This document shows, one piece after another, positions 19,087-32,711 of a stretch of 43,511 bases of DNA (its first letter is position 1; every line of letters starts with the position of its first letter). A program made the translations under genes and the position numbers. The DNA lies in the NCBI GenBank assembly GCA_009780955.1, contig WQZB01000044.1:1-43511 (forward strand), read 5' to 3'. The DNA comes from Polyangiaceae bacterium. GTDB taxonomy: Bacteria; Myxococcota_A; Polyangia; Polyangiales; Polyangiaceae. The notes beneath the pieces were generated by a model that ran no database searches, was not told the DNA's origin, and saw only the letters and a program-made list of their open reading frames with translations.

Positions 19087-21648
19087 CTACCGCCCAACAC
19101 CTTCGAGGGTAAAAACCGGTCGTCCGGTGTCGCGCGAGGCTTGGAGATCGACCGTGAGCTCGACGAACCAGTCGTTGTCTTCTTCGGGATCGAGCAGCGT
19201 TTGACGGATGCGCCAAGCTTCTTCGCCCTCGACCACCGCCATGTGCTTTGGGCTTCGCGCTTCGGGATCGGTGCGAAGGCTCGTGTGCTCAGCAAAGTAG
19301 GGAGAAAACTCGGCCTCGATTCGCGCCGCTTCGTGCGCCTCGACACCGCTTGCACCGGGCGCGTTGGGCAGCCCGATCGTTCGCATCGTGCGCGCCGCCT
19401 CGGTCCAATCGCGCCGCGAAAGAGCTCGTACGAACCGGAACGTTTCGTTGCGAACGAGCACCATGAAGGCCCTGCGATCGCGCGTGATGTCTTTCGACCC
19501 TTCCGGTTCGAGATCGCCGGGCACGATGGGCGCCTCGATGCGCTCGGCCGGGTTTTTCAGGCGCTCCCATTCGTCGAGCAAGCTCGCATCTACCTGGCGC
19601 ACGATGGCACCGAAGTAGACGATCACGTCTTCGATCGCCTCGGTTTTTGCCCACTTCGGCACGGTTTGCACGAGTGTTTTGTAAACATCGGAGAGATACC
19701 GAAGCAAAAGCCCCTCGACCCGCTCGAGGCCATATTCCTTCACGTATTCTGAAAAAGACATAAACTGTTCGTACATTTCGCGCGCAATCGATTTAGGGCG
19801 AATGTTCTCCGCCTTGACCCACGGGTGAAGCGCGGCAAAGGCGTTGAATGTGCCATAAATGAATTCGGCTTGCGGCTTTGGGTATTCAAGCTTTTCGAGT
19901 TCCGCCATGCGTTCTTCGTATTCCACACCGGCCGCTTTCAGCTCCGCGAGCTTTTTGCCTTTCAGCATGTCGAGCTGGCGCGCGAGAATGATGTCGGGGT
20001 TTTCGAGAATCGATTCGACCAACGTAAGCAAATCGAGCTCGTAGGCAGGGTCGGACGGCACAAGGCGCTTCAGCGTGTCGAGCAAGTAGAGTGACAGCGC
20101 GTGATGGATCGAAAAATCTTCGCCGAGATCGCTATTGACAACGATGCGCCGCCGGCCGCTTTCGTCGTAATCGATCTCAAGAATGCCGGCGTTTTTGAGC
20201 GACTTCACCATCTCGATCGCCGTGCGCCCCAAAATGCGCTTTTGCGCGGGCCGCTCGTGACTCGACTTGATGAGACGCGCAAGCGCCATGCACCCGCCAC
20301 TTTCTTCGCGCGACAGCACGCTTGCGACCATGCTGTGCGACACGGTGAAGCGCGAGGTAAGCGGCTCAGGCGAAGAGACAATAAGCTTATCGAAGGTGGA
20401 TTTGTCCCAGGGGACATAACCCCATTCGGGAGGCTTTTTCTTGACGATTCTCCGCTTCTTGATGGGGTCGCTTCCTGCTTTTGCTTCGAGTCGCAAATTC
20501 TCGATGACATGCTCGGGCGCTTGGGCCACGACACTTCCTTGTTCGTCGAAACCCTTGCGACCGGCACGCCCGCTAATTTGCTGGAAATCGCGGACGCGCA
20601 AAATGGCGGTTTTTTCGCCGTCGAACTTGCATAATTTCGTAAAAAGCACGGTGCGAATGGGAATGTTGACGCCCACGCCAAGCGTGTCCGTTCCGCTGAT
20701 GACTTTCATGAGCCCTTTTTGCGCAAGCTTCTCGACGATAAGTCGATACTTTGGCAAAAGGCCCGCGTGGTGGATGCCAATGCCGTGACGAATGAAGCGT
20801 TGGATCTCCCGACCGTAGGGGCTATCGAATCGAGCGCCTTTGAGCGCTTCGGCGATTTGCTTCTTTTCGTCTTTCGTAGAGAAATCTACGCTCATCAAGT
20901 TTTGCGCTTCTTCGGCGCATGCGCGCTGCGTGAAATTGACAATGTAAACAGGGTATTGGTTCTTGCTGACGAGGTGCTGCACCGTTTCGTGAAGAGGTGT
21001 TTCGCGGTATTCGAAATCGAGCGGAACGGGGCGATGGGTGGACTTCACGACGGCCGTGGGCTTGCCGGTGAGGCGCGAAAGATATTTTTCGAACGGCTCG
21101 GGATCGCCAAAGGTGGCGCTCATTAAAAGAAAGCGTGCATTACGCAATGAAAGAAGCGGAATTTGCCACGCCACGCCACGATCGCGATCGGCGTAATAGT
21201 GAAACTCGTCGAGCACGGCGAGGTCTACCTCGGCGCGTGGGCCGCCCGCGAGGGCGATGTTGGCAAGGATTTCGGCGGTAGCGCAGACGATCGGCGCGTC
21301 GCGATTCACGGTGGCATCGCCAGTCATGAGGCCAACGTTGTCGGCGCCGAACGTTCGGACAAGGGCGAAGAACTTTTCGTTCGCAAGCGCCTTGATGGGT
21401 GACGTATAGAATGAGCGCTGACCGCGAACGAGAGCCTCGAAGTGTGCGGCCTCGGCAACGAGCGATTTGCCCGACCCGGTGGGCGTGCTCAAGATGACGT
21501 TGCTACCGGCAAGAAGCTCCAAGATTGCCTCTTCTTGTGCCGGGTAAAGTTCAAGGTTGCGTGCAGCGACGTAGCCTAGAAACGCGGAGAGAATGTCGTC
21601 GCTCGAAGCGTCCGTTGGGGGAAGATCATGCAGATGGGCTTCAGCCAT
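19087..21648 (-). CDS. Ski2-like DExH helicase with DUF3516 C-terminal domain
   Basis: An 853-aa superfamily 2 helicase. TPTGSGKS (55-62) is motif I, SPIKALANEKF is motif Ia, DEFH (148-151) is motif II, and LMSATFGDP is motif III. GIGIHHAGLLPKYR, SGTDTLGVGVNIP and QISGRAGRKGFD are motifs IV-VI of the Ski2/Mtr4 type. The C-terminal 350 residues match the DUF3516 helicase family known mainly from Actinobacteria. The family's relatives unwind RNA for the exosome; the bacterial substrate is not established. I chose the ATG at 21648 (MAEAHLHDLP), since the twelve upstream codons look non-native. It is divergent from tRNA-Ser. Confidence 0.88.
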   Translation of the reverse strand: MAEAHLHDLPPTDASSDDILSAFLGYVAARNLELYPAQEEAILELLAGSNVILSTPTGSGKSLVAEAAHFEALVRGQRSFYTSPIKALANEKFFALVRTFGADNVGLMTGDATVNRDAPIVCATAEILANIALAGGPRAEVDLAVLDEFHYYADRDRGVAWQIPLLSLRNARFLLMSATFGDPEPFEKYLSRLTGKPTAVVKSTHRPVPLDFEYRETPLHETVQHLVSKNQYPVYIVNFTQRACAEEAQNLMSVDFSTKDEKKQIAEALKGARFDSPYGREIQRFIRHGIGIHHAGLLPKYRLIVEKLAQKGLMKVISGTDTLGVGVNIPIRTVLFTKLCKFDGEKTAILRVRDFQQISGRAGRKGFDEQGSVVAQAPEHVIENLRLEAKAGSDPIKKRRIVKKKPPEWGYVPWDKSTFDKLIVSSPEPLTSRFTVSHSMVASVLSREESGGCMALARLIKSSHERPAQKRILGRTAIEMVKSLKNAGILEIDYDESGRRRIVVNSDLGEDFSIHHALSLYLLDTLKRLVPSDPAYELDLLTLVESILENPDIILARQLDMLKGKKLAELKAAGVEYEERMAELEKLEYPKPQAEFIYGTFNAFAALHPWVKAENIRPKSIAREMYEQFMSFSEYVKEYGLERVEGLLLRYLSDVYKTLVQTVPKWAKTEAIEDVIVYFGAIVRQVDASLLDEWERLKNPAERIEAPIVPGDLEPEGSKDITRDRRAFMVLVRNETFRFVRALSRRDWTEAARTMRTIGLPNAPGASGVEAHEAARIEAEFSPYFAEHTSLRTDPEARSPKHMAVVEGEEAWRIRQTLLDPEEDNDWFVELTVDLQASRDTGRPVFTLEGVGR

Positions 21649-21774
21649 GAAACCGCAAGATAGACCGCTTTCGATTTGGCACACTCTCTTCGCGTTGGTG
21701 AGGCTGTTCCGGGCCGCTCCTGAATTCGTGAGTTGCGCGGTGGCCGAGGGCCGAGTACATCAAATCTATCCTTT
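21649..21774. promoter_or_regulatory. divergent region between helicase gene and tRNA-Ser
   Basis: These 126 bp must contain the tRNA promoter on the plus strand and the helicase promoter on the minus strand. An A/T-rich stretch at 21759-21774 (ATCAAATCTATCCTTT) directly precedes the tRNA, but I cannot define -35 and -10 boxes with confidence. Confidence 0.35.
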
Positions 21775-21863
21775 GGAGAGGTGACCGAGTGGCCGAAGGT
21801 ACCCGCTTGCTAAGCGGGCGTCGGGCTAAAACCCGACCGCGGGTTCGACTCCCGCCCTCTCCG
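21775..21863 (+). tRNA. tRNA-Ser, anticodon GCU (reads AGC/AGU)
   Basis: The acceptor stem GGAGAGG (21775-21781) pairs with CCTCTCC (21856-21862), with discriminator G at 21863. The anticodon stem CCCGC/GCGGG encloses TTGCTAA, with anticodon GCT at 21809-21811. The long variable arm (GTCGGGCTAAAACCCGAC, 21820-21837) is the serine hallmark, and the T arm GCGGG-TTCGACT-CCCGC is intact. CCA is not encoded directly after the discriminator base. The 3' half is the likely attachment site of the adjoining mobile island. Confidence 0.97.
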
Positions 21864-23201
21864 CTGTAACAGCGCGAAATTGCTAGTACGTTTTGGCTCC
21901 GTGGCCAAAACTTGGCCAAAACTCGCTGGGGCCTTCAAGAGATCTGCGGACAGCGGAGGGAACGGCTCGCCGTGGCGCTGGCGGAGGTCGGGACCCCGCT
22001 TGATGTAGCTCGCCCACGTGGTCTCTGGCGACTTGTGTCCGGCTTGAGCCGCGATGACGTAGCTGTCGGTGCCGAGCATCGCAAGCCACGTGCAGCCTGT
22101 CGTCCGGAAGCTCCGGAAGTCGAACGGCAGATGGTCGACCGTACCCTCTACAAGCTCGCGGCGAGCGATGCCCGCAAGCTTTAAGTGCCGGCGCGTCCGA
22201 TCTGCAAAACGTTCGAAGAGGCGGGCGCTTCCGATGAGCGGGATGATGCGCTCGTCGTCGCTCGCACGCTCTTCGTACATCGCCTGGAGCAGCGGCATCA
22301 GATTTTCGTGAATGGGGATCTCGCGGATGCCGGCGTCGCTCTTCGTTCCTGGCTTCTCTTCGCCACTCCGCACATCGAGCTTGCGGCGCACTCGAATCTC
22401 TTGAGCGGTTCGGTCGACGTCGGACCAACGAAAAGCGTACAGCTCTTGAGGCCTCGGATAGAGGTACGTCGCGAGCACGTAGAGCCGGCGCGCTGAGATC
22501 GGAACGGCTTCGCACGTGATCAACTGCACGAATTCGTGCGGGTAGAGCGGCTGCCGCTCTCGCTTTTCTTCGTCGAGCTGCTCTTTCGTCACCGGCGGCT
22601 TCACGCTCGTCACTGGATTCGCGCTCGATGGCCCGACGCGCACCGAAGAATAGCGGGGATCATCGTCGGTGAACGCACGGGAGAACGGCGCCACGATGAT
22701 GTCACTCCACATGTTCATGGCTCGCTTGCTCGAGATCGATCCGGCAAAAACGGCGTTTGTCATCGCGTCGCGAATACCGATGATCTGCTCGCGCGTGATC
22801 GACTGCATGGGCATCGTTCCGACCCGTGAGCCGACCCACGTTGCGGCGGGCCCCTTCATGTCTCGAATCGATTTGCCAAGTCGTTCGTGGACCTCGAGAT
22901 ACCTTGGGTGCCATTCGTTCCACGTCTCCCCATGCGCTTCGGCGGATTTCAGCGCCTTCGCCTCGCGCGCGCGCTTCTCCACCAAGAGCTCGCCGTTCTC
23001 GTCCTCGCGCTCTTGCCTCGCGTGGACATAGAGTTCAGCGCGCTCGCGTGCCGTCTTTCCACCCGCGGGCGTGCTGTATTTGTCGGGCACGTCGATCCAT
23101 TTGCGTGAGCCGTCGCCGAGGCAGACGCGACCGCGAAAGTAGGTCGTTCCGTCGGCGCGTTTGCACGCCTCGACGCTACCGGTACGAGGCGGGCCACTCA
23201 T
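21810..23201 (-). CDS. int: tyrosine-type integrase whose frame ends inside tRNA-Ser
   Basis: A 463-aa site-specific recombinase. The N-terminal arm-binding region and SAM-like core-binding domain span about 1-200; the catalytic domain follows. Catalytic residues are Arg250 (PRPQELYAFRW), Arg363/Arg366 (FRSFRTT, where the usual His of HxxR is Arg), Gly-His at 388-389, and Tyr399 (TTWASYIK). Residues 447-463 (RRGRESNPRSGF...) are encoded by the antisense of tRNA-Ser, and the stop codon lies over the anticodon loop. The start overlaps the stop of the ribbon-helix-helix gene (ATGA), so the two are cotranslated. The gene drives integration and excision of the island to its right. Confidence 0.92.
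   Translation of the reverse strand: MSGPPRTGSVEACKRADGTTYFRGRVCLGDGSRKWIDVPDKYSTPAGGKTARERAELYVHARQEREDENGELLVEKRAREAKALKSAEAHGETWNEWHPRYLEVHERLGKSIRDMKGPAATWVGSRVGTMPMQSITREQIIGIRDAMTNAVFAGSISSKRAMNMWSDIIVAPFSRAFTDDDPRYSSVRVGPSSANPVTSVKPPVTKEQLDEEKRERQPLYPHEFVQLITCEAVPISARRLYVLATYLYPRPQELYAFRWSDVDRTAQEIRVRRKLDVRSGEEKPGTKSDAGIREIPIHENLMPLLQAMYEERASDDERIIPLIGSARLFERFADRTRRHLKLAGIARRELVEGTVDHLPFDFRSFRTTGCTWLAMLGTDSYVIAAQAGHKSPETTWASYIKRGPDLRQRHGEPFPPLSADLLKAPASFGQVLATEPKRTSNFALLQRRGRESNPRSGFSPTPA
21838..21863. mobile_element. putative attachment site (att) in the 3' end of tRNA-Ser
   Basis: The integrase gene abuts and crosses this T arm and acceptor stem, the usual crossover zone for tRNA-targeting integrases. 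I searched by eye for a second copy of this segment to the right (to 30.7 kb) and found none, so the second att site is either degenerate or outside the window. The exact core cannot be fixed from one copy. Confidence 0.6.
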
Positions 23202-23386
23202 CTTGACCCGTGTTTCAACATCGCAGGCGGCGGTGCATCGAGGCCAAACCGCATGCCGTATTTAATCCGAACGAGAGTCCGCACAAAGGAGGCGATCGAC
23301 ACATCGCTTTCGTCGCATATCCGATGCAGCATGTTCATCTCCTCGTCGGAGCACTTCACGACGAGGTTTCGTTTCCGCTTCACCAT
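23198..23386 (-). CDS. ribbon-helix-helix DNA-binding protein
   Basis: 62 aa. MVKRKRNLVVKCSDEEMNML is the basic ribbon strand followed by the first helix, and the second helix is SIASFVRTLVRIKYGM, the usual RHH pattern of CopG/Arc-type regulators. Its TGA overlaps the integrase ATG (ATGA at 23198-23201), so it probably controls the integrase it is coupled to, acting as repressor or recombination directionality factor. An AT-rich segment with two palindromes 60-90 bp upstream (23447-23476) could hold its operators. Confidence 0.78.
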   Translation of the reverse strand: MVKRKRNLVVKCSDEEMNMLHRICDESDVSIASFVRTLVRIKYGMRFGLDAPPPAMLKHGSR

Positions 23387-24624: not shown

Positions 24625-25401
24625 TCAGGCCGACGCGCGAGCGCGCTCTGTCACTCCTGCAAGACGCAGTTGAGAATCCTCCGCAGGCGGCGGCTCTGTC
24701 GACGAGGACAGCATTTTATGCTCTTTGCCGGACGCAGCGATCAAGCGATCACGTGAAAGACGAACAGCGATCTCGGCAATGTCGTTCCCTTTGAAGTGCC
24801 GTCCGTTCCGAACAGCCGCGACGCCTGCTGACCCAGATCCCATGAACGGGTCGAGGACAACCTCTCCGGGCAGAGTGCTTTGTCGAACGAGAACGTCGCT
24901 GATCTCGACGGGTTTTTCGGTCGGGTACCCGCCACGGATTCGCTTCGCTTCGAGGATGTCGGAGATTCCGAGATCGTGTAGCTTCCGCTTTCCTTTCTCG
25001 AAAAAGAGAATGAACTCGTAACGCGAACGATAGTGATAGCCCATTCCGATCGCGCGCTTGTCCCACACGAGTGGTTTCCAGAACTTGAAGCCGACGCTTT
25101 CCGCGATCGGTTTTGCGATGAACGCCGTTTCCGGGTCGCAGAAAAGATAGAAGTGTGTGTTCTTCTCGAGCACGCGGTGAACCTCTCGAAACAGCTCCTT
25201 GAAACGCGAGTTCGGAAAGATCCTGAACCACTCATTACTTGAGCCCTTGCTCACCTTCAGCCTGGTCGTAGTTCCGATCGCTCGGTGTTTTTCCAGCGAC
25301 TCGTAGGGCGGATCCGTGATGACGAGATTCGCGCTTGCGGCGGGGAGTGTGCGAAGCCATGAGACGGCGTCGCCCTCGTTGAGCTGAAAGTTCGCCAACA
25401 T
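24625..25401 (-). CDS. site-specific DNA methyltransferase, beta class (N6-adenine or N4-cytosine)
   Basis: 258 aa. DPPY (30-33) comes before the SAM-binding DPFMGSG (184-190), the order of beta-class methylases. FQLNEGDAVSWLRTLP leads into DPPY, and TEKPVEISDVLVRQSTLPGE is the usual segment before motif I. The last 40 residues (KMLSSSTEPPPAEDSQL) are extra. I start it at ATG 25401 because upstream in-frame codons lie in a stem-loop and U-tract; there is no evident ribosome-binding site. It is divergent from the Dam-class methylase, with 227 bp between, and likely protects host DNA for the linked nuclease or acts with the Dam-like enzyme. The target site is unknown. Confidence 0.87.
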   Translation of the reverse strand: MLANFQLNEGDAVSWLRTLPAASANLVITDPPYESLEKHRAIGTTTRLKVSKGSSNEWFRIFPNSRFKELFREVHRVLEKNTHFYLFCDPETAFIAKPIAESVGFKFWKPLVWDKRAIGMGYHYRSRYEFILFFEKGKRKLHDLGISDILEAKRIRGGYPTEKPVEISDVLVRQSTLPGEVVLDPFMGSGSAGVAAVRNGRHFKGNDIAEIAVRLSRDRLIAASGKEHKMLSSSTEPPPAEDSQLRLAGVTERARASA

Positions 25402-25445
25402 AAAAAAAACGACTAGCACAATGGAATCATGCAAACTAGTCGTTT
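25402..25445 (-). promoter_or_regulatory. attenuator-like stem-loop plus U8 tract directly before the methylase start
   Basis: AAACGACTAG (25407-25416) and CTAGTCGTTT (25436-25445) are perfect 10-bp inverted arms with a 19-nt loop. Read on the minus strand, the 3' arm runs into eight T residues (25409-25402), followed immediately by ATG. This is the shape of an intrinsic terminator or of a protein operator; either would limit methylase expression. Confidence 0.55.
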
Positions 25446-25628
25446 GTTCAGTGCTTGAAGCCCTTGAAAACACCGATGATGTTCTGTATGCATTGTTTTT
25501 TTAATGTAAGCCGTGGCTAGTCGGACGATCTTTGCCATCCATGTCGTTCGACCGTCTTCGCGCGCGCGCGGTCCCCTCTCATCAGACCCGTTGAGCAGCG
25601 GCAGAGCGACTGTTACGACGGAGCCTGC
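25446..25628. promoter_or_regulatory. divergent promoter region of the methylase/nuclease locus
   Basis: It lies between the divergent methylases. AT-rich patches at 25494-25508 (ATTGTTTTTTTAATG) could be promoter elements, but I cannot place paired boxes. GGAG (25620-25623) serves the Dam-class start at 25629 with a 5-nt spacer. Confidence 0.4.
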
Positions 25629-26537
25629 ATGCCGAAGGTGGTTCATCGCGCCAACCTCCCGCTCATCGTGGAGCTTCCCACTCCGCGACCATTCCTGAAG
25701 TGGGTTGGTGGAAAGACTCAACTCTTGGACCAGCTTTGCCCGCTGCTACCCGAGATGTTCGGACGATACTTCGAGCCCTTCGTTGGAGGAGCTGCACTCT
25801 TTTTCGCCCTTCGACCACCGAGGGCGTCGCTGCGCGACGTGAACGAAGAGCTCATCGACTGCTATCGGGCGATCCGTGACGAGGTTGATTCGGTGATTGA
25901 GGCGCTCGGAGAGCATCGATACGAGCGAAAGTACTACTACATCGTCCGCGAACTTGATCCGCGGTCGCTGCCACGGGCGCGGCGCGCAGCGCGTACAATC
26001 TTCCTCAACAAGACGGGCTTCAACGGGCTCTACCGTGTCAATAGTGCTGGCCGTTTCAACGTCCCGTTCGGACGACACACGAACCCGGCGATCTGCGACG
26101 AAGACAACCTTCGCTCGTGCTCTTTGGCGCTGCAAGGGGTCGAACTGGAGGTTCGAGACTTCCGACAGATTGTGAAGGATACCGCGCCTGGAGACTTCGT
26201 CTACTTCGACCCACCGTACGCGCCCATCTCGGACACCGCGGACTTCATATCGTATGCTGTTGGTGGGTTTGGTTGGGCGGATCAAGAGAATCTGGCCGAG
26301 GCGTTCTCGGATCTGACCAAGAAGGGCGTCTATGCAATGCTCTCGAACTCCAATGCACCTGGCATCCGCGATCTCTACGCGGGCTTCACCATTGAGGAGG
26401 TGTCAGCGGTTCGCAGCGTCAACTCGAACATTTCGCGTCGCGGTAAGATCGCCGAGATTGTAGTGCGCAACTACGAACGTCGGCTTGCGCAAGCGAACGG
26501 GAAGTCGAGGCGCAGAGTGCAGCGAATTGCGGTGTAG
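25629..26537 (+). CDS. DNA adenine methylase, Dam/D12 class
   Basis: 302 aa. PFLKWVGGKTQLLDQL (21-36) and YFEPFVGGAALFF give the SAM-binding motifs. NKTGFNGLYRVNSAG (127-141) is the characteristic Dam/DpnM signature, and DPPY (194-197) is the catalytic motif, so this is the alpha-type order (SAM site first). The family methylates adenine, commonly in GATC; specificity here is not proven. GGAG lies 5 nt before the ATG. It is the first of five tightly packed genes, with the nuclease-like gene starting 2 bp after its stop, which argues for a restriction-modification role and not a housekeeping Dam. Confidence 0.92.
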   Translation: MPKVVHRANLPLIVELPTPRPFLKWVGGKTQLLDQLCPLLPEMFGRYFEPFVGGAALFFALRPPRASLRDVNEELIDCYRAIRDEVDSVIEALGEHRYERKYYYIVRELDPRSLPRARRAARTIFLNKTGFNGLYRVNSAGRFNVPFGRHTNPAICDEDNLRSCSLALQGVELEVRDFRQIVKDTAPGDFVYFDPPYAPISDTADFISYAVGGFGWADQENLAEAFSDLTKKGVYAMLSNSNAPGIRDLYAGFTIEEVSAVRSVNSNISRRGKIAEIVVRNYERRLAQANGKSRRRVQRIAV

Positions 26538-26539
26538 CG

Positions 26540-27847
26540 GTGGCCAAGTCCCAGACGTCGCAAGCGTGGGCTCGCATTGGTGCGATCCATCACATAGAAG
26601 AGAGGCTCGCGAACGGCGAATCGATTTCGCTCTCGGCTCAGGAGATCAAAGAACTCGGGGGACGCGAGCCGAGGTTGATGACGAAGTTCGACACTCGCGC
26701 GAGTCGACCGCCGCTGCTCTCCTCCGCCACGGTCTTGCCGGTGACGAACGGAAGCTATGTCATCCTCCCTGGTGACGGGTACCACGATCTGATCGAGCTG
26801 ACGTCGACCACGCGCTGGCCGTTGGTGAAGTCGGTTGCCGCTCTGCGCACGCTCCCATGGACCACCGGCCCGTGCTCCGAGTCTCAGGCGCTCGATATGG
26901 CGTTGGCGGCAGGCATTCTGGGGGACTTTCTCGACGACCCGCACGCCCGACTGACGGTACGTGGTCGGCGGCGCGCACCGAGGTTCGACTTCGAGTTTCA
27001 CTGCCCAGCGTCGGTCGAACAAGTCGTTGTCGAGGGAGTTCAGGTCGAAGTCGATTCGGGACTTGAGGGCGACGGAATACACCTGATCGAGGGAAAGCTT
27101 GGCAGCCGAGACGACTTTCATGTGCGTCAGCTCTACTACCCGCTTCGCATGTGGCAGCGCGAGGTGCCGGAAAAGAAGGTGAGTACGGTCTTCATGACCT
27201 GGAGCAATCGTCGCTTCGAGCTGCGCATGTTTTCGTTCGAGCCGGCCAATCGCTACCACGCCATCAAGCTCGTGAAGGCGGTCGACTACGTCATCGAAGA
27301 CGAGAGCGAAGTCGTGTCGCTCGCCCAAATATTGAACAGCACTGAGCTGGAGGATCTGCCCAAAGCGCCGTTCCCTCAAGCTGACGACATTCGCAAGGTC
27401 ATCGACATCGTCGACGCGGTGGGATCGGGCACGCAAGACCGAACCGGGATCGCCGACAAGTGGAATATCGACGAGCGACAAGCCGACTACTACGGGAACG
27501 CCGCAATCTTCTTGGGTCTACTTTTGCGGACCCCACGAGCATTCGCACTTTCATCGTTCGGCTCGGAGTTTGTTCGCGGTGGCCTCACCGAGCGGATGAT
27601 CTTTCTCGCCAGGCGGATGACGTCACTGCCCGTCTTTCGCACCGTCTTGGAGCATGCTGTCGTCCAGAGCGCGTTGCCCGACCATGCGCGCGTTGCCGAG
27701 TTGATTGCGCGGTCAACAGGATTGACTGGCGCCACACCACTTCGACGTGCCTCCACGGTCATTGCGTGGGCACGCTGGATGATCGATGCTTTCGCTGAAC
27801 ATCTTCAAGTGCCTATCGGCGGACAGGGAGATCATGGGGACGGATGA
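26540..27847 (+). CDS. PD-(D/E)XK-like type II restriction endonuclease (putative)
   Basis: 435 aa with a GTG start 2 bp after the methylase. The central region GVQVEVDSGLEG followed by GIHLIEGKLGSRDDFHVRQL has Asp172 and Glu184-x-Lys186, the spacing and strand context of a PD-(D/E)XK active site. RQLYYPLRMW and VSTVFMTWSNRRFEL continue the alpha/beta core. The C-terminal part (GSGTQDRTGIADKWNIDERQ, then ADYYGNAAIFLGLL) looks like a winged helix. Similar proteins annotated as type II restriction enzymes exist in my memory, but the exact family and target are not certain. The last 14 bp overlap the next gene. Confidence 0.7.
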   Translation: MAKSQTSQAWARIGAIHHIEERLANGESISLSAQEIKELGGREPRLMTKFDTRASRPPLLSSATVLPVTNGSYVILPGDGYHDLIELTSTTRWPLVKSVAALRTLPWTTGPCSESQALDMALAAGILGDFLDDPHARLTVRGRRRAPRFDFEFHCPASVEQVVVEGVQVEVDSGLEGDGIHLIEGKLGSRDDFHVRQLYYPLRMWQREVPEKKVSTVFMTWSNRRFELRMFSFEPANRYHAIKLVKAVDYVIEDESEVVSLAQILNSTELEDLPKAPFPQADDIRKVIDIVDAVGSGTQDRTGIADKWNIDERQADYYGNAAIFLGLLLRTPRAFALSSFGSEFVRGGLTERMIFLARRMTSLPVFRTVLEHAVVQSALPDHARVAELIARSTGLTGATPLRRASTVIAWARWMIDAFAEHLQVPIGGQGDHGDG

Positions 27848-28706
27848 ATCGCAGCGGGCCGCATTCGACTTCCTTCGGAAGCACGCGAAGGAGCAGACGA
27901 CCTTCACCGTTACAGATGTCGAAGCAAAGACCAAGTGGAGCGAGGGGACCTGGAAAACGTATAGGTCGAAGCAGTTCAAGTCGTATATCAGGGTGGCGAC
28001 CGAAGCGAAGGGCGCGTTCTGCGTAGATCCAAGCTTCTTGCGTCTGAGTCTTGAGGATTTTCGAGCCCTCACAACGCAGGTTCGCAAGCCTGTCGTCACG
28101 TGGTCGCGTGCCACCTACGACCACGTCGTCTCGTACGAGTTCCTGCTGCCGTTGACAAAGGAGGACAAGCTCCGTACCGCGCTCGATGACCTCTTCTATC
28201 GCGACACGCTCGAGCAGCGGACGCGAGAGATTCTCTCGAAGCCCGCGCTGGCGGAAGCTGTATCTCGCATTGATGGCGAAGCGGATGACATATACGTCTC
28301 CCGCGTAGTTACGCTCATCGCCGGGCTCATTGGAGGTTATTCGGTCAGCCACGTCAGCGGACGCTTTCGCGCGGACGCGATCGCCTCTCGCGCGGAGGCC
28401 GCCAGCATGCTTGTTGACCGAAGGCGCTATCTGGTCGACGAGACGACGGCGGTAGTCCGGTTCATCATTCCCTGCAGGAGCAGCCGCTTGATTCACGGCG
28501 ACGTGTTTGACCTCAAGGGACCGGAGGCCATCGTGGATGGTGTTCCGCGGGCAGCCGCTACCGATGTGGGGGTGATTCGACGCCTCTTCTTTCTCTTCTT
28601 TGTCGAGGCGGTGGTTGGGCCGATCCAGGGCGAGGACGAGATCTGGTTGCTTGAAGATTCGCCATATGGCCGCCGTCTCTACACACTATCCAGGTCAGAC
28701 GATTGA
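27834..28706 (+). CDS. unknown protein with N-terminal winged-helix-like region, in the methylase/nuclease operon
   Basis: 290 aa; I do not recognise the family. Residues 5-50 (AAFDFLRKHAKEQTTFTVTD, then WSEGTWKTYRSKQFKSYI) have the look of a helix-turn-helix or winged-helix domain. The middle is helical and charged (LPLTKEDKLRTALDDLFYRD), and the end has a hydrophobic helix IRRLFFLFFVEAVVG followed by DEIWLLEDSPYGRRLYTL. I chose the ATG at 27834 (GGGAG just upstream; 14-bp overlap with the nuclease gene); an ATG at 27786 is also in frame. The overlap implies coupled synthesis with the nuclease, so it may be a nuclease partner, a specificity protein or a controller. Confidence 0.75.
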   Translation: MGTDESQRAAFDFLRKHAKEQTTFTVTDVEAKTKWSEGTWKTYRSKQFKSYIRVATEAKGAFCVDPSFLRLSLEDFRALTTQVRKPVVTWSRATYDHVVSYEFLLPLTKEDKLRTALDDLFYRDTLEQRTREILSKPALAEAVSRIDGEADDIYVSRVVTLIAGLIGGYSVSHVSGRFRADAIASRAEAASMLVDRRRYLVDETTAVVRFIIPCRSSRLIHGDVFDLKGPEAIVDGVPRAAATDVGVIRRLFFLFFVEAVVGPIQGEDEIWLLEDSPYGRRLYTLSRSDD

Positions 28707-28715
28707 GGGAGGGCC

Positions 28716-29057
28716 ATGGGAAGCAAAAAGAAGTCGAAGATGAAGGCGTCGCAGCCTGCCGCGGAATTGCGGGGGACCGTACGCCACTGGCTACGACTCC
28801 ACGGGTACGACGACGTTGCCGATCTGATCGACGAGATCATTACCGAGTGGCGGAGTGCCGGCCGCGCGACACGTCGAAATTGGTGGGACATTCTCTCGGG
28901 CGACAAAAAGGGTCAGCCGCGCGGAGTTGGGGGACGAACCTTTCCGGTCCTCGCATCAGCACAACGTCGTCAAGGGAAGGCGGTGACCAAGAACGCGATC
29001 CAGCGCTCGCGCAATGAGCCACTACCGCTGGTTCCTGAAAAGACCCGGTGGAGGTAG
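28716..29057 (+). CDS. small basic protein of the methylase/nuclease operon
   Basis: 113 aa, family unknown. It has a lysine-rich start (MGSKKKSKMKAS), a helical segment (TVRHWLRLHGYDDVADLIDE) and a basic Gly/Arg-rich second half (RRNWWDILSGDKKG, then KAVTKNAIQRSRNE). It is preceded by a strong ribosome-binding site (GAGGGAGG) and lies 9 bp after the previous gene. The charge suggests nucleic-acid contact, which is inference. It is too short to be an enzyme of a known restriction class. Confidence 0.68.
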   Translation: MGSKKKSKMKASQPAAELRGTVRHWLRLHGYDDVADLIDEIITEWRSAGRATRRNWWDILSGDKKGQPRGVGGRTFPVLASAQRRQGKAVTKNAIQRSRNEPLPLVPEKTRWR

Positions 29058-29059
29058 TC

Positions 29060-29260
29060 GTGCGACGACCCTCTCCCGACGCCCTCTCTTGTATGCGCGA
29101 TCTGGCCCGTGGCGACAGCTATAGCTTTCAGCACGTGTACTCGATGCTGGCGCGATTCGCGGCAAAGGCCAATCCGCGGCTCCGTTTGCTCCCCCCGTAC
29201 CGCGAGTACGTGTCTCAGGGGTGTACTGGCGCAATCGGCTTTGACGTAATCGTCACATGA
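29060..29260 (+). CDS. very small protein ending the methylase/nuclease operon
   Basis: 66 aa from a GTG that has GGAGG exactly 5 nt upstream (29050-29054), 2 bp after the preceding stop. It contains SCMRDLARGDSYSFQHVYSM and NPRLRLLPPYREYVSQGC. No family is recognised. The excellent ribosome-binding site and the 2-bp gap make it a real operon member more likely than chance. Confidence 0.5.
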   Translation: MRRPSPDALSCMRDLARGDSYSFQHVYSMLARFAAKANPRLRLLPPYREYVSQGCTGAIGFDVIVT

Positions 29261-30484: not shown

Positions 30485-30668
30485 GGGATCTACCTCCTAC
30501 GACGGACCGAATGTTTCGTGAGCGAAAGTATCAAAGTATCGTCGATAGGTGAGCGATCAATGGCGTCCTTTGGACGTCTCGCGAACGGCGGGGCGAGATC
30601 GCGATCGATATCCGCGCCGCATGCGGCGTCTGTCGCACGGATCCGCAGATAGTCCTAAAATGTTGATC

Positions 30669-31412
30669 ATGCCCAAAGTGCGAGCCGACGAGCTCGTCGT
30701 GATGCTCGGCCTGGCGCCAACGCGTTCGCGTGCCCAAGCCCTAATCCTTGCGGGCAAAGTCTACGTCGGCGACGTTCGCGTCGACAAAGCAGGCGCGCGC
30801 CTTGCAGAAAATGCGCCGATCGCCATCCGCGGCAGCGATCATCCGTACGTGTCACGCGGTGGGGTGAAGCTCGCCGGCGCGCTCGATGCCTTTGGCGTCG
30901 ATCCACACGGCAAACGCTGCATCGATTTCGGCGCGTCGACCGGTGGCTTCACCGACTGCCTTCTTCAACGTGGCGCCGCGAGAGTTGCAGCCGTCGACGT
31001 TGGCTATGGGCAGCTCGCCCACGTCCTTCGAGTCGACCCACGCGTGCAGGTGCTCGAGCGAACCAACGCTCGCGCACTTGAAGCTTCGCTTGTCGGCGGC
31101 ATGGCCGATCTCATCGTTGTCGATGCGTCGTTCATTGGCCTTGGCAAGCTCGCTGACGCGATTGTTCGATGTCTTTTGCCTGGCGGCGAGCTCGTTGCCC
31201 TCGTCAAGCCGCAGTTCGAAGTCGGCCGCGAAGAGGCCTCGAAAGCCCGCGGCGTCGTGCGCGACCCAGCTCTGCGCGCCCGCGCCATCGATGGCGTGGT
31301 TGCCGAGGTGGCGGCCTCGGGCCTTGAAATCCTCGCCACAACCGATTGCATCATCAAAGGACCGCGCGGCAACCTCGAGGCGTTTGTGCACGCGCGCAAG
31401 CCTGCTAGGTGA
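30669..31412 (+). CDS. tlyA: TlyA-family rRNA 2'-O-ribose methyltransferase
   Basis: 247 aa. The N-terminal S4 RNA-binding domain is RADELVVMLGLAPTRSRAQA, followed by LILAGKVYVGD. The linker has HPYVSRGGVKLAGAL, and the FtsJ-like methylase domain carries DFGASTGGFTDCLLQ for SAM and later LVALVKPQFEVGRE with the catalytic Lys. The family methylates 16S and 23S rRNA and affects capreomycin sensitivity; the hemolysin label is historical. I chose the ATG at 30669; an in-frame ATG at 30660 is equally possible. The MFS gene starts 18 bp after the stop. Confidence 0.92.
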   Translation: MPKVRADELVVMLGLAPTRSRAQALILAGKVYVGDVRVDKAGARLAENAPIAIRGSDHPYVSRGGVKLAGALDAFGVDPHGKRCIDFGASTGGFTDCLLQRGAARVAAVDVGYGQLAHVLRVDPRVQVLERTNARALEASLVGGMADLIVVDASFIGLGKLADAIVRCLLPGGELVALVKPQFEVGREEASKARGVVRDPALRARAIDGVVAEVAASGLEILATTDCIIKGPRGNLEAFVHARKPAR

Positions 31413-31430
31413 ACGAACTCGGAAATTTTG

Positions 31431-32711
31431 ATGGCGAAACGCTCCCCCACGTTCAACCCAAATGCATCCGCCAACACCGACGCCCAGCACTCGCGAAAGG
31501 GATTTCCTCCTGGCCTCGGCGCCATCTTTCTCATCGTTTTTCTCGACATTCTCGGCTTCAGTATGGTTTTGCCGTTTCTCGCCGAGGAAGCGCGCAGCAC
31601 CTTTCATACTACCGAGTTCGTGGGCACGCTTCTCGGGTCCATTTACTCGCTCATGCAGTTTCTTTTCGTGCCGGTGTGGGGTCGTCTCTCCGACCGTATC
31701 GGGCGACGGCCCGTGCTTCTCTGGAGCGTAGCTGCCACTTGCGTCGGCTGGATCGGGCTCGCCGTTGGTCTCATCTACACATCAAGCGTCACGTGGCTTT
31801 TTCTCGCGCGCATCTTCAGCGGCATTGCCACCGCAAACCTTGGCACCGCAAGCGCCTATATCGCCGACGTCACCAAGCCCGAAGACCGTTCCCGTGGCAT
31901 GGGCCTCATCGGCATGGCCTTCGGCCTCGGATTCACCATCGGCCCGGCCATCGGCGGCATGCTCTCGGTCTTTCGCGTCAACGGTCGCGAGGGCGCCGTG
32001 CCATGCTTCGTCGCGGCAAGTCTGTCGCTATTGAACTTCGCCTGGGCAAAGCTAAGCCTGAAAGAGTCATTGCCGATCGATAGGCGTTCCACCCTTCGTC
32101 GAAGCCTTTCGCCACTGAGCGTTGCCGCCGCCCGCGAAGCGTTCGCGCTGCCAGGTGTTGCCCGGGTCATTGCGGTCAACTTCGTCTTGATTCTCTCGTT
32201 CACCGTTCTTGACCAGACTCTTCGCTTCTTCAACGCAGACTTATTTGAGATTACGAAGTTCGGCACCGGGCTCGTTCTCGCCTTCGTCGGCGTTGTTGCT
32301 GCAAGCGTGCAGGGCGCACTCATCAGGCCGCTGTCGCGCCGCTATAGCCAGGCCGATCTCATCCGCGCCGGCACGGTGATTCAGGCCGTTGCTTTTGCCG
32401 CCATCGCGATCTCACCTTCGTTTGGATTGCCCGCACTCGTTGCAGCATGCGGCCTGCTCGCGCTCGGCAATGGCCTAACGCAACCAAGCATTGCGGGTTA
32501 TGTGTCGACGCGTGCCGATCCTCGCGCGCAAGGCGCCACGCTCGGCACCAACCAGTCGGCGGCGAGTCTCGCACGCGTATTCGGGCCTGCTCTCGGCGGA
32601 TGGATGTACGGGGCATTGGGTCCGCGCATGCCGTACCTCGCAAGCGCCATGGGCATGGCCCTCGCCAGCGCCGTTGCGTTCTCGCTCGCGAAAAGCGAGT
32701 CTACCGAGTAG
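31431..32711 (+). CDS. MFS drug-type exporter (TetA-like)
   Basis: 426 aa with about 12 hydrophobic segments. The A motif GRLSDRIGRRPVLL lies in the loop after helix 2, and ARIFSGIATANLGTASAYIA plus GMAFGLGFTIGPAIGG are helices 4-5 with the antiporter motif C. The pattern is that of proton-driven TetA/Bcr-type exporters; the substrate is unknown. A 30-residue hydrophilic N-terminus precedes the first helix. I start at ATG 31431 and not the TTG three bases earlier. It follows tlyA by 18 bp. Its TAG stop (32709-32711) lies inside a GTAGGGGC palindrome. Confidence 0.9.
   Translation: MAKRSPTFNPNASANTDAQHSRKGFPPGLGAIFLIVFLDILGFSMVLPFLAEEARSTFHTTEFVGTLLGSIYSLMQFLFVPVWGRLSDRIGRRPVLLWSVAATCVGWIGLAVGLIYTSSVTWLFLARIFSGIATANLGTASAYIADVTKPEDRSRGMGLIGMAFGLGFTIGPAIGGMLSVFRVNGREGAVPCFVAASLSLLNFAWAKLSLKESLPIDRRSTLRRSLSPLSVAAAREAFALPGVARVIAVNFVLILSFTVLDQTLRFFNADLFEITKFGTGLVLAFVGVVAASVQGALIRPLSRRYSQADLIRAGTVIQAVAFAAIAISPSFGLPALVAACGLLALGNGLTQPSIAGYVSTRADPRAQGATLGTNQSAASLARVFGPALGGWMYGALGPRMPYLASAMGMALASAVAFSLAKSESTE

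Follow-up and report, generated by a model that had tools for sequence, protein, structure and literature searches.

A Dam methylase–nuclease locus of a Polyangiaceae bacterium with two additional protein families, one of them predicted to carry a SAM-lyase-like domain

In the window, i.e. the whole stretch of 43,511 nucleotides of Polyangiaceae DNA analysed in this study, a beta-class DNA methylase gene diverges from a run of five open reading frames (Table 1). A recount of the open reading frames confirmed this arrangement as described in the initial annotation, including the gaps of 2, -14, 9 and 2 bp within the run, and gene order and coupling are evident. The Dam-class methylase gene adjoins the restriction nuclease gene, which is the layout of a type II restriction-modification system, and the homology of methylase and nuclease is clear from their profile matches. 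Apart from these genes, a tRNA-Ser(GCT) is overlapped by a tyrosine integrase gene, a pair that may mark the end of an island. A direct-repeat search gave no second att copy, and matches to the tRNA end elsewhere in the genome comprised one tRNA-like place of 81% identity and weak pieces. An empty site was sought as well and given up, as in congeners that hold both flanks (20300-21864 and 30549-32700) these lay on different contigs or far apart and no joint was seen.

Table 1. Genes and other features of the locus, with positions in the window.
Feature	Position	Strand	Characteristics
tRNA-Ser(GCT) overlapped by tyrosine integrase gene (21810-23201, -)	21775..23201	.	Possible island end
Beta-class DNA methylase	24625..25401	-	PF01555 E 1e-31; divergent
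Divergent intergenic region	25402..25628	.	9-nt perfect inverted repeat (25408-25444) and three CTAGTCG
Dam-family (alpha class) adenine methylase	25629..26537	+	PF02086 E 1.1e-58; TIGR00571 E 3.5e-80
Restriction nuclease, predicted PD-(D/E)XK	26540..27847	+	DUF6996-DUF6997-DUF7226
A290 (290-aa ORF)	27834..28706	+	Winged helix and SAM-lyase/PII-like domain (predicted); 14 bp overlap with nuclease gene
B113 (113-aa ORF), small basic partner	28716..29057	+	27 homologues; fusions to A290 or Dam methylases
66-aa ORF	29060..29260	+	29122-29217 repeated on contig C97, 85% identity

The Dam-class methylase matched the DpnII methylase in the PDB (2dpm, E 1.8e-76). For the nuclease, a Pfam search at E <= 1 returned DUF6997 (E 7.6e-40), DUF7226 (E 4.7e-21) and DUF6996 (E 4e-17) only, PADLOC assigned it to REase_II (E 2.9e-49) and the PDB gave no match at E <= 1. 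The residues E170, D172, E176 and E184-x-K186 were invariant in all 26 sequences compared, a pattern of PD-(D/E)XK type, and the protein is predicted to be such a nuclease. A literature search that reached a minority of the subscription journals yielded no mention of DUF6997, DUF6996 or DUF7226. In the phylum of the window the nuclease domain was seen in 2 of 282 genomes (own genome counted). It was found in 23 plasmid records, and a Dam methylase adjoined it in all six inspected; beside these six pairs no second methylase was listed in a gene table that is incomplete. The beta-class enzyme, whose frame is open from an upstream GTG (25473) as well, has plasmid relatives of up to 70% identity, and four out of four inspected among the closest had no annotated nuclease alongside. 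Against PDB chains named DpnA it gave a weak match (3e-8). Judged from these relatives it is probably a solitary methylase.

The intergenic region between the diverging genes contains repeats that might be taken for an operator or a riboswitch. Such repeats are ordinary for the window, in which a 7-mer occurs three times within 120 bp in 71 cases and nine-nt inverted repeats occupy 34 positions, and this candidate was therefore kept as a lead only. Rfam reported only the tRNA and one antisense match under its gathering score. A hairpin 5' of the beta-methylase ATG folded better than shuffled sequences when its 59 nt were taken alone (z -2.98) but not within its context of 137 nt (z -1.05).

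For A290 and B113 the family databases gave nothing beyond chance: for A290 there was no Pfam or PADLOC match at E <= 1 and NCBIfam gave a chance-level match only (0.16), and for B113 Pfam and PADLOC (E <= 1) as well as NCBIfam gave none. Nevertheless, each has a homologue family of its own, A290 with 657 members (own entry counted) and B113 with 27 homologues at E <= 0.001, and both are therefore more than chance reading frames. B113 occurred in 2 of 377 genomes of the phylum (own genome counted) and at one locus in viral contigs; A290 was not found in phages or viral contigs. Relatives of both lie beside DNA methylases, or are fused to them, in distant bacteria and in archaea, and the homologue survey revealed natural fusions of A290 to B113 and of Dam to B113. 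A290 recurs with methylases and with three kinds of nuclease. The initial annotation had considered all three extra proteins obligate parts of this system. The recurrence near methylases and nucleases, together with the fusions, supports the view that A290 and B113 are components of restriction systems. Their obligate status was not borne out, since the plasmid collection, which holds the DUF6997 nuclease, gave no match to either protein at E <= 1e-5 and, conversely, the 290-aa family also adjoins other nucleases. The plasmid pairs that lack the extra genes (6 of 6 inspected) could also be read to mean that these genes are passengers beside a plain two-gene restriction system, but for A290 and B113 the fusions and the recurrence near methylases in unrelated phyla make this very improbable.

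The passenger reading does suit the 66-aa ORF. This frame overlaps a repeated piece of DNA, whose copy on C97 was its only relative in the own genome at E <= 0.001, and stretches lying farther downstream recur on C4, C29 and C97. Moreover, no match to the ORF was found across 41 related loci, and the system probably does not include it as a gene, contrary to the initial annotation. The C97 copy sits inside an open frame of 151 aa, so that there may still be a small gene.

To approach the fold of A290 we used the predicted structure of a natural A290-B113 fusion (P0032) that is 52% identical to the A290 of the window. The model has a ferredoxin-like PII fold, which would place the protein in that superfamily, and A290 is accordingly predicted to consist of a winged helix and a PII-like domain closest to the phage SAM lyases. 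Comparison of the profiles by hhalign gave no significant match to SAM lyases (p 0.13 and 0.31). The catalytic Glu of the lyases and the ribose-side Ser, Gly and aromatic positions appear to be retained. E203, present in 81 of 81 A290 sequences, would be this Glu, located where the T-loop ends and equated through its strand position and the E-x-[ST] spacing rather than through a printed structural alignment. For the B-loop Gln (Gln104 of Svi3-3), no Gln was conserved above 80% among A290 positions 245-277; at the likely place of Gln104 there is Glu267 (79 of 81). Within the PII-like domain, invariant residues occupy positions of the lyase active site, which argues against A290 being a DNA-recognition subunit of the nuclease, whose winged helix binds the site while the remainder is a scaffold and SAM is not involved. 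In several loci the nuclease has only 137-146 aa, with A290 following or overlapping, as such a subunit might. Homologues of the window's nuclease do without A290 on plasmids, however, and we regard this role as unlikely.

The invariant Glu also fits a back-up effector, in which failure of restriction is detected through the winged helix and the lyase-like domain then degrades SAM, or a different adenosine compound, leading to starvation or to a lack of phage-DNA methylation. A winged-helix N-terminus akin to that of A290 was found on DUF3644 (HEPN) proteins in three of four proteins scanned with Pfam and, in the fourth, on a Ser/Thr kinase encoded just upstream of a beta-class methylase (L080), as if a common trigger served different effectors. 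In addition, HEPN-family relatives of DUF3644 occur in restriction operons according to PMC3710099. On the other hand, the lyase Gln104 is not retained, no antitoxin-like partner was recognised and the sole toxin-like neighbour seen was a DarT-Macro pair at one locus (L018), and we consider a back-up effector somewhat unlikely.

Across loci, the partner of A290 that more often stays the same is the methylase, whereas the nuclease varies, and fusions join B113 to A290 in some cases and to Dam in others. From this we infer joint action of A290, B113 and the methylase. That B113 is found fused to Dam, and not to A290 alone, points to contact with the methylase rather than to control of the promoter alone. 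This finding, along with the ordinary nature of the intergenic repeats, renders it unlikely that A290 controls transcription of the restriction genes in the manner of C proteins, responding to some ligand that is not SAM or to no ligand at all. A methylase lay within 1 kb of A290 in 17 of 25 loci with the winged helix and in 2 of 15 without it (Fisher p 0.001; one locus without an A290 ORF, L043, dropped, and several of the 15 cut by contig ends or frameshifts), but with Lokiarchaeota and Spirochaetes collapsed to one each p rose to 0.057 and we therefore do not rely on this enrichment.

Our preferred reading, with a probability of roughly 0.4, is that the Dam methylase and the predicted PD-(D/E)XK nuclease carry an A290-B113 add-on which binds SAM, or a compound closely derived from it, and tunes the methylase side against the nuclease. 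The winged helix would serve to bring the complex to DNA, with the lyase-like domain acting as the reader, or consumer, of SAM. In this way, protective methylation and cutting could be kept in step as SAM falls, e.g. upon attack by a phage SAM lyase or in starvation. With such a fold, the A290-B113 pair would probably enable the system to monitor or regulate its supply of methyl groups. A wider and more doubtful proposal is that restriction systems captured the SAM-lyase fold of phages. On the host side, A290 would then sense SAM or, as a subunit, cleave it; jointly with B113 it would dock on the methylase of its own system and choose between methylation and cutting of incoming DNA. It would do so in combination with several families of nuclease, in bacteria as well as in Asgard archaea. 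To our knowledge, little is known about how cells match cutting and protection at low SAM. Among the matches listed by a literature search reaching few of the subscription journals, titles and abstract openings described no SAM-lyase domain in a restriction operon. If our reading is correct, a widespread methylase-linked SAM-lyase-like protein would tie restriction directly, and in a testable way, to the pool of methyl donor, and A290 would mirror the phage SAM lyases directed against host defences. Furthermore, A290 and B113 represent two unannotated families, by which restriction loci whose nucleases are unknown can be recognised.

Type II restriction is usually pictured as the work of two independent enzymes. 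The analogy to DpnII and MboI drawn initially applies to the Dam-class enzyme, which adjoins the nuclease and has the DpnII methylase as its closest PDB entry. It does not extend to the nuclease, which has no DpnII family match, nor, probably, to the beta-class enzyme, which diverges and resembles solitary enzymes; moreover, A290 and B113 are added. With the Dam and DUF6997 pairs of Firmicutes and cyanobacterial plasmids the locus shares the nuclease family and its invariant residues, but differs by these two proteins. C proteins are small helix-turn-helix regulators of about 80-100 aa, unlike A290 with its 290 aa. The DUF3644/EC042_2821 HEPN proteins, picked up by the A290 profile, resemble A290 in their N-terminal winged helix; their C-terminal domain is HEPN, whereas that of A290 is predicted to be PII-like, and A290 has no DUF3644 match. 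EC042_2821, which overlaps DUF3644, is tabulated in PMC3710099 as a wHTH fusion and in R-M operons. With Svi3-3, the T3 SAMase and the SAM-AMP lyases of type III CRISPR systems A290 shares the modelled PII-like fold and the catalytic Glu together with the Gly and aromatic positions; the Ser is a further position in common with Svi3-3. In contrast to these lyases, A290 has a winged helix in front, inserted helices and no conserved B-loop Gln, and it resides in restriction operons instead of phage or CRISPR loci.

The window lies on contig C44 of a 4.2 Mb assembly in 112 contigs, and an ORF check of it bore out all genes, gaps and coordinates of the initial annotation. The DpnII methylase 2dpm is the closest PDB match of the Dam-class methylase (E 1.8e-76). 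For the nuclease, Pfam reported DUF6996, DUF6997 and DUF7226, and PADLOC REase_II covers nearly the whole protein (E 2.9e-49). An alignment of 26 nuclease sequences, including 6 plasmid ones, showed E170, D172, E176 and E184-x-K186 to be invariant, which matches the expectation for a PD-(D/E)XK enzyme. The nuclease is predicted to belong to this class.

The initial annotation had further proposed that the downstream A290 (290 aa), B113 (small and basic, 113 aa) and 66-aa proteins are obligate parts of the system. Nucleases of the window's type were found in 23 plasmid records; all six inspected carried an adjacent Dam methylase, and none of the six showed a second methylase beside the nuclease (incomplete gene table). 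Moreover, a search of the plasmid collection gave no match to A290 or B113 at E <= 1e-5. Therefore, the proposed obligate role was not borne out, as on the plasmids inspected the nuclease occurs with one Dam methylase and without a match to A290 or B113. The 66-aa ORF had no match in 41 related loci and overlaps a 96-bp piece that is 85% identical to a copy on another contig, where it lies in an open frame. The beta-class methylase shares up to 70% identity with methylases on plasmids. Next to the four of these that were inspected, the incomplete gene tables list no nuclease, and the window's enzyme may be an independent passenger. The hairpin before it has a folding z of -2.98 over 59 nt and -1.05 over 137 nt. 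Since an integrase overlaps tRNA-Ser 1.4 kb left of the locus, the latter likely lies in an island. Contig C4 also weakly matches the tRNA end near 100.9 kb, perhaps an older island end.

Coordinates of genes and flanking features in the window
Feature	Coordinates	Strand	Remark
Short dispersed repeat	about 21654-21725		left of tRNA; >15 partial copies in genome
Tyrosine integrase overlapping 3' half of tRNA-Ser(GCT)	21775-23201	opposite strands	
62-aa ORF	23198-23386		beside integrase; weak RHH/CopG match
Beta-class methylase (PF01555)	24625-25401	-	start most likely 25401
Hairpin	25402-25448	-	9-nt perfect arms, then eight U; directly before beta-methylase ATG; attenuator-like
Dam-class methylase	25629-26537	+	
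Nuclease	26540-27847	+	
A290	27834-28706	+	
B113	28716-29057	+	
66-aa ORF	29060-29260	+	
Repeat pieces	29122-29310		copies on contigs C97, C4, C29

The comparative data show both conservation of A290 and B113 and a link between them. At E <= 0.001 the A290 family counts 657 proteins including the one in the window, and family details rest on 120 listed members; B113 has 27 homologues. A290 runs on into B113 in 30 of these 120 proteins, B113 is fused to a Dam methylase instead at L009 and L014 (L numbers denote matched loci in other genomes) and to a partial A290 at L039. Contig sharing was counted by proxy, as listed proteins on equal-sized contigs, with 100 shifted sets as control. By this proxy, among the listed proteins, A290 coincided with B113 in 5 cases (control mean 0.46) and with the nuclease in 5 (1.1), B113 with the nuclease in 0 (0.21); a common source tag also held for 4/5 in each A290 pairing.

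One scan yielded 41 loci, with Myxococcales, Chloroflexi, Spirochaetes, Verrucomicrobia, Acidobacteria, Proteobacteria and Lokiarchaeota among the groups represented. The six-frame ORFs of these loci were scored against the window proteins and small profiles. Among A290 loci the nuclease kind varies and the methylase is the commoner constant. A Dam-family methylase lies within 1 kb of A290 in 17 of the 41 loci and a PF01555 methylase in 2 further ones; neither kind was found within 1 kb in 22. A PDDEXK_11-type protein occurs within 1.6 kb in 11 loci by a profile built from four of them (confirmed by Pfam in L006, L013 and L014), and an HNH nuclease at L011 and L015. L005 of a Myxococcales bacterium carries the window's DUF6997-kind nuclease; its overlap with A290 is about 20 bases, against 14 in the window. 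The A290 relative in G347, a genome placed in the window's family, appears to be the one at this locus. Gene orders include Dam-PDDEXK-A290-B113 at L013 and L021, Dam-HNH-A290 at L011 and L015, and methylase-B113-A290-PDDEXK at L020. On a viral contig, B113 without A290 precedes a C5 methylase; another such B113, at L078 (3171-5734), lies between a DUF6575 protein (DUF7226 just below cut-off), possibly a further nuclease kind, and a Dam methylase. In Lokiarchaeota (L022-L024, L028, L030, L031) A290 adjoins a Dam methylase, followed in 5 of 6 loci by a conserved convergent gene (116-189 aa) without a Pfam family in the one scanned. At L018 (7986-10674) DarT and a Macro-domain protein come after A290.

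A290 appears to be two modules joined, because its N-terminal part occurs on other proteins and its lyase-like domain occurs without the winged helix. The A290 profile matched in 12 of 377 genomes of the window's phylum, in 2 nearly full length and in 10 restricted to the first ~86 residues. Pfam scans of four of these ten proteins identified DUF3644 in three (L069, L070, L072) and a Ser/Thr kinase in one (L073); another N-terminal match, L068, has a type I specificity subunit as its neighbour. Excerpts of PMC3710099 list DUF3644 as HEPN; the EC042_2821 family, which overlaps it, is described there as located in R-M operons and as a wHTH fusion. Conversely, Spirochaete proteins of 205-230 aa (L025, L029, L032, L033, L034) carry the lyase-like domain with its motif intact, without winged helix or nearby methylase. 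At L080 (418-2303) a winged-helix Ser/Thr kinase precedes, at a distance of 53 bp, a methylase closely homologous to the beta-class enzyme in the window.

In the lyase-like domain of A290, S170-x5-G176-x-F/Y178 lies on a strand matching the phage SAM lyase Svi3-3, and E203-x-T205 begins the next strand. S170, G176, F/Y178 and E203 are each present in 81/81 alignment rows and T205 in 79. The combined motif occurs in 118 of the 120 listed A290 members versus 8/218 other ORFs and 1/120 nuclease-family proteins; minus the Ser, which T3 SAMase lacks, it occurs in 62/218 other ORFs. The comparison of T3-type lyases with the A290 profile was not significant, and no conserved Gln was found in the B-loop stretch of the 81 rows. 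Therefore, we call the domain lyase-like and probably ligand-binding rather than a SAM lyase.

Taken together, the methylase-centred context, the fusions and this domain suggest that an accessory complex sits on the methylase and either reads or consumes SAM. Such a complex might brake cutting when protection fails or might withhold methylation from incoming DNA. We favour A290 as a SAM-responsive regulator, tentatively (probability roughly 0.4), over a SAM-destroying effector, which we consider unlikely. According to an excerpt of PMC12707154, phage T3 lyase degrades SAM and so blocks BREX, and it is disputed what the enzyme contributes against type I restriction. In the face of attacks of this sort, it would make sense for a restriction system to have a SAM sensor.

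According to PMC7877911, the Svi3-3 ligand is held by Ser50, Glu69, Ser71 and Gln104, Gly56 and Tyr58 pack against it, and activity needs Glu69. Compared with Svi3-3, A290 keeps the Ser, Gly, aromatic and Glu positions, whereas the B-loop Gln104 is not conserved; its counterpart is likely Glu267 (79/81 rows).
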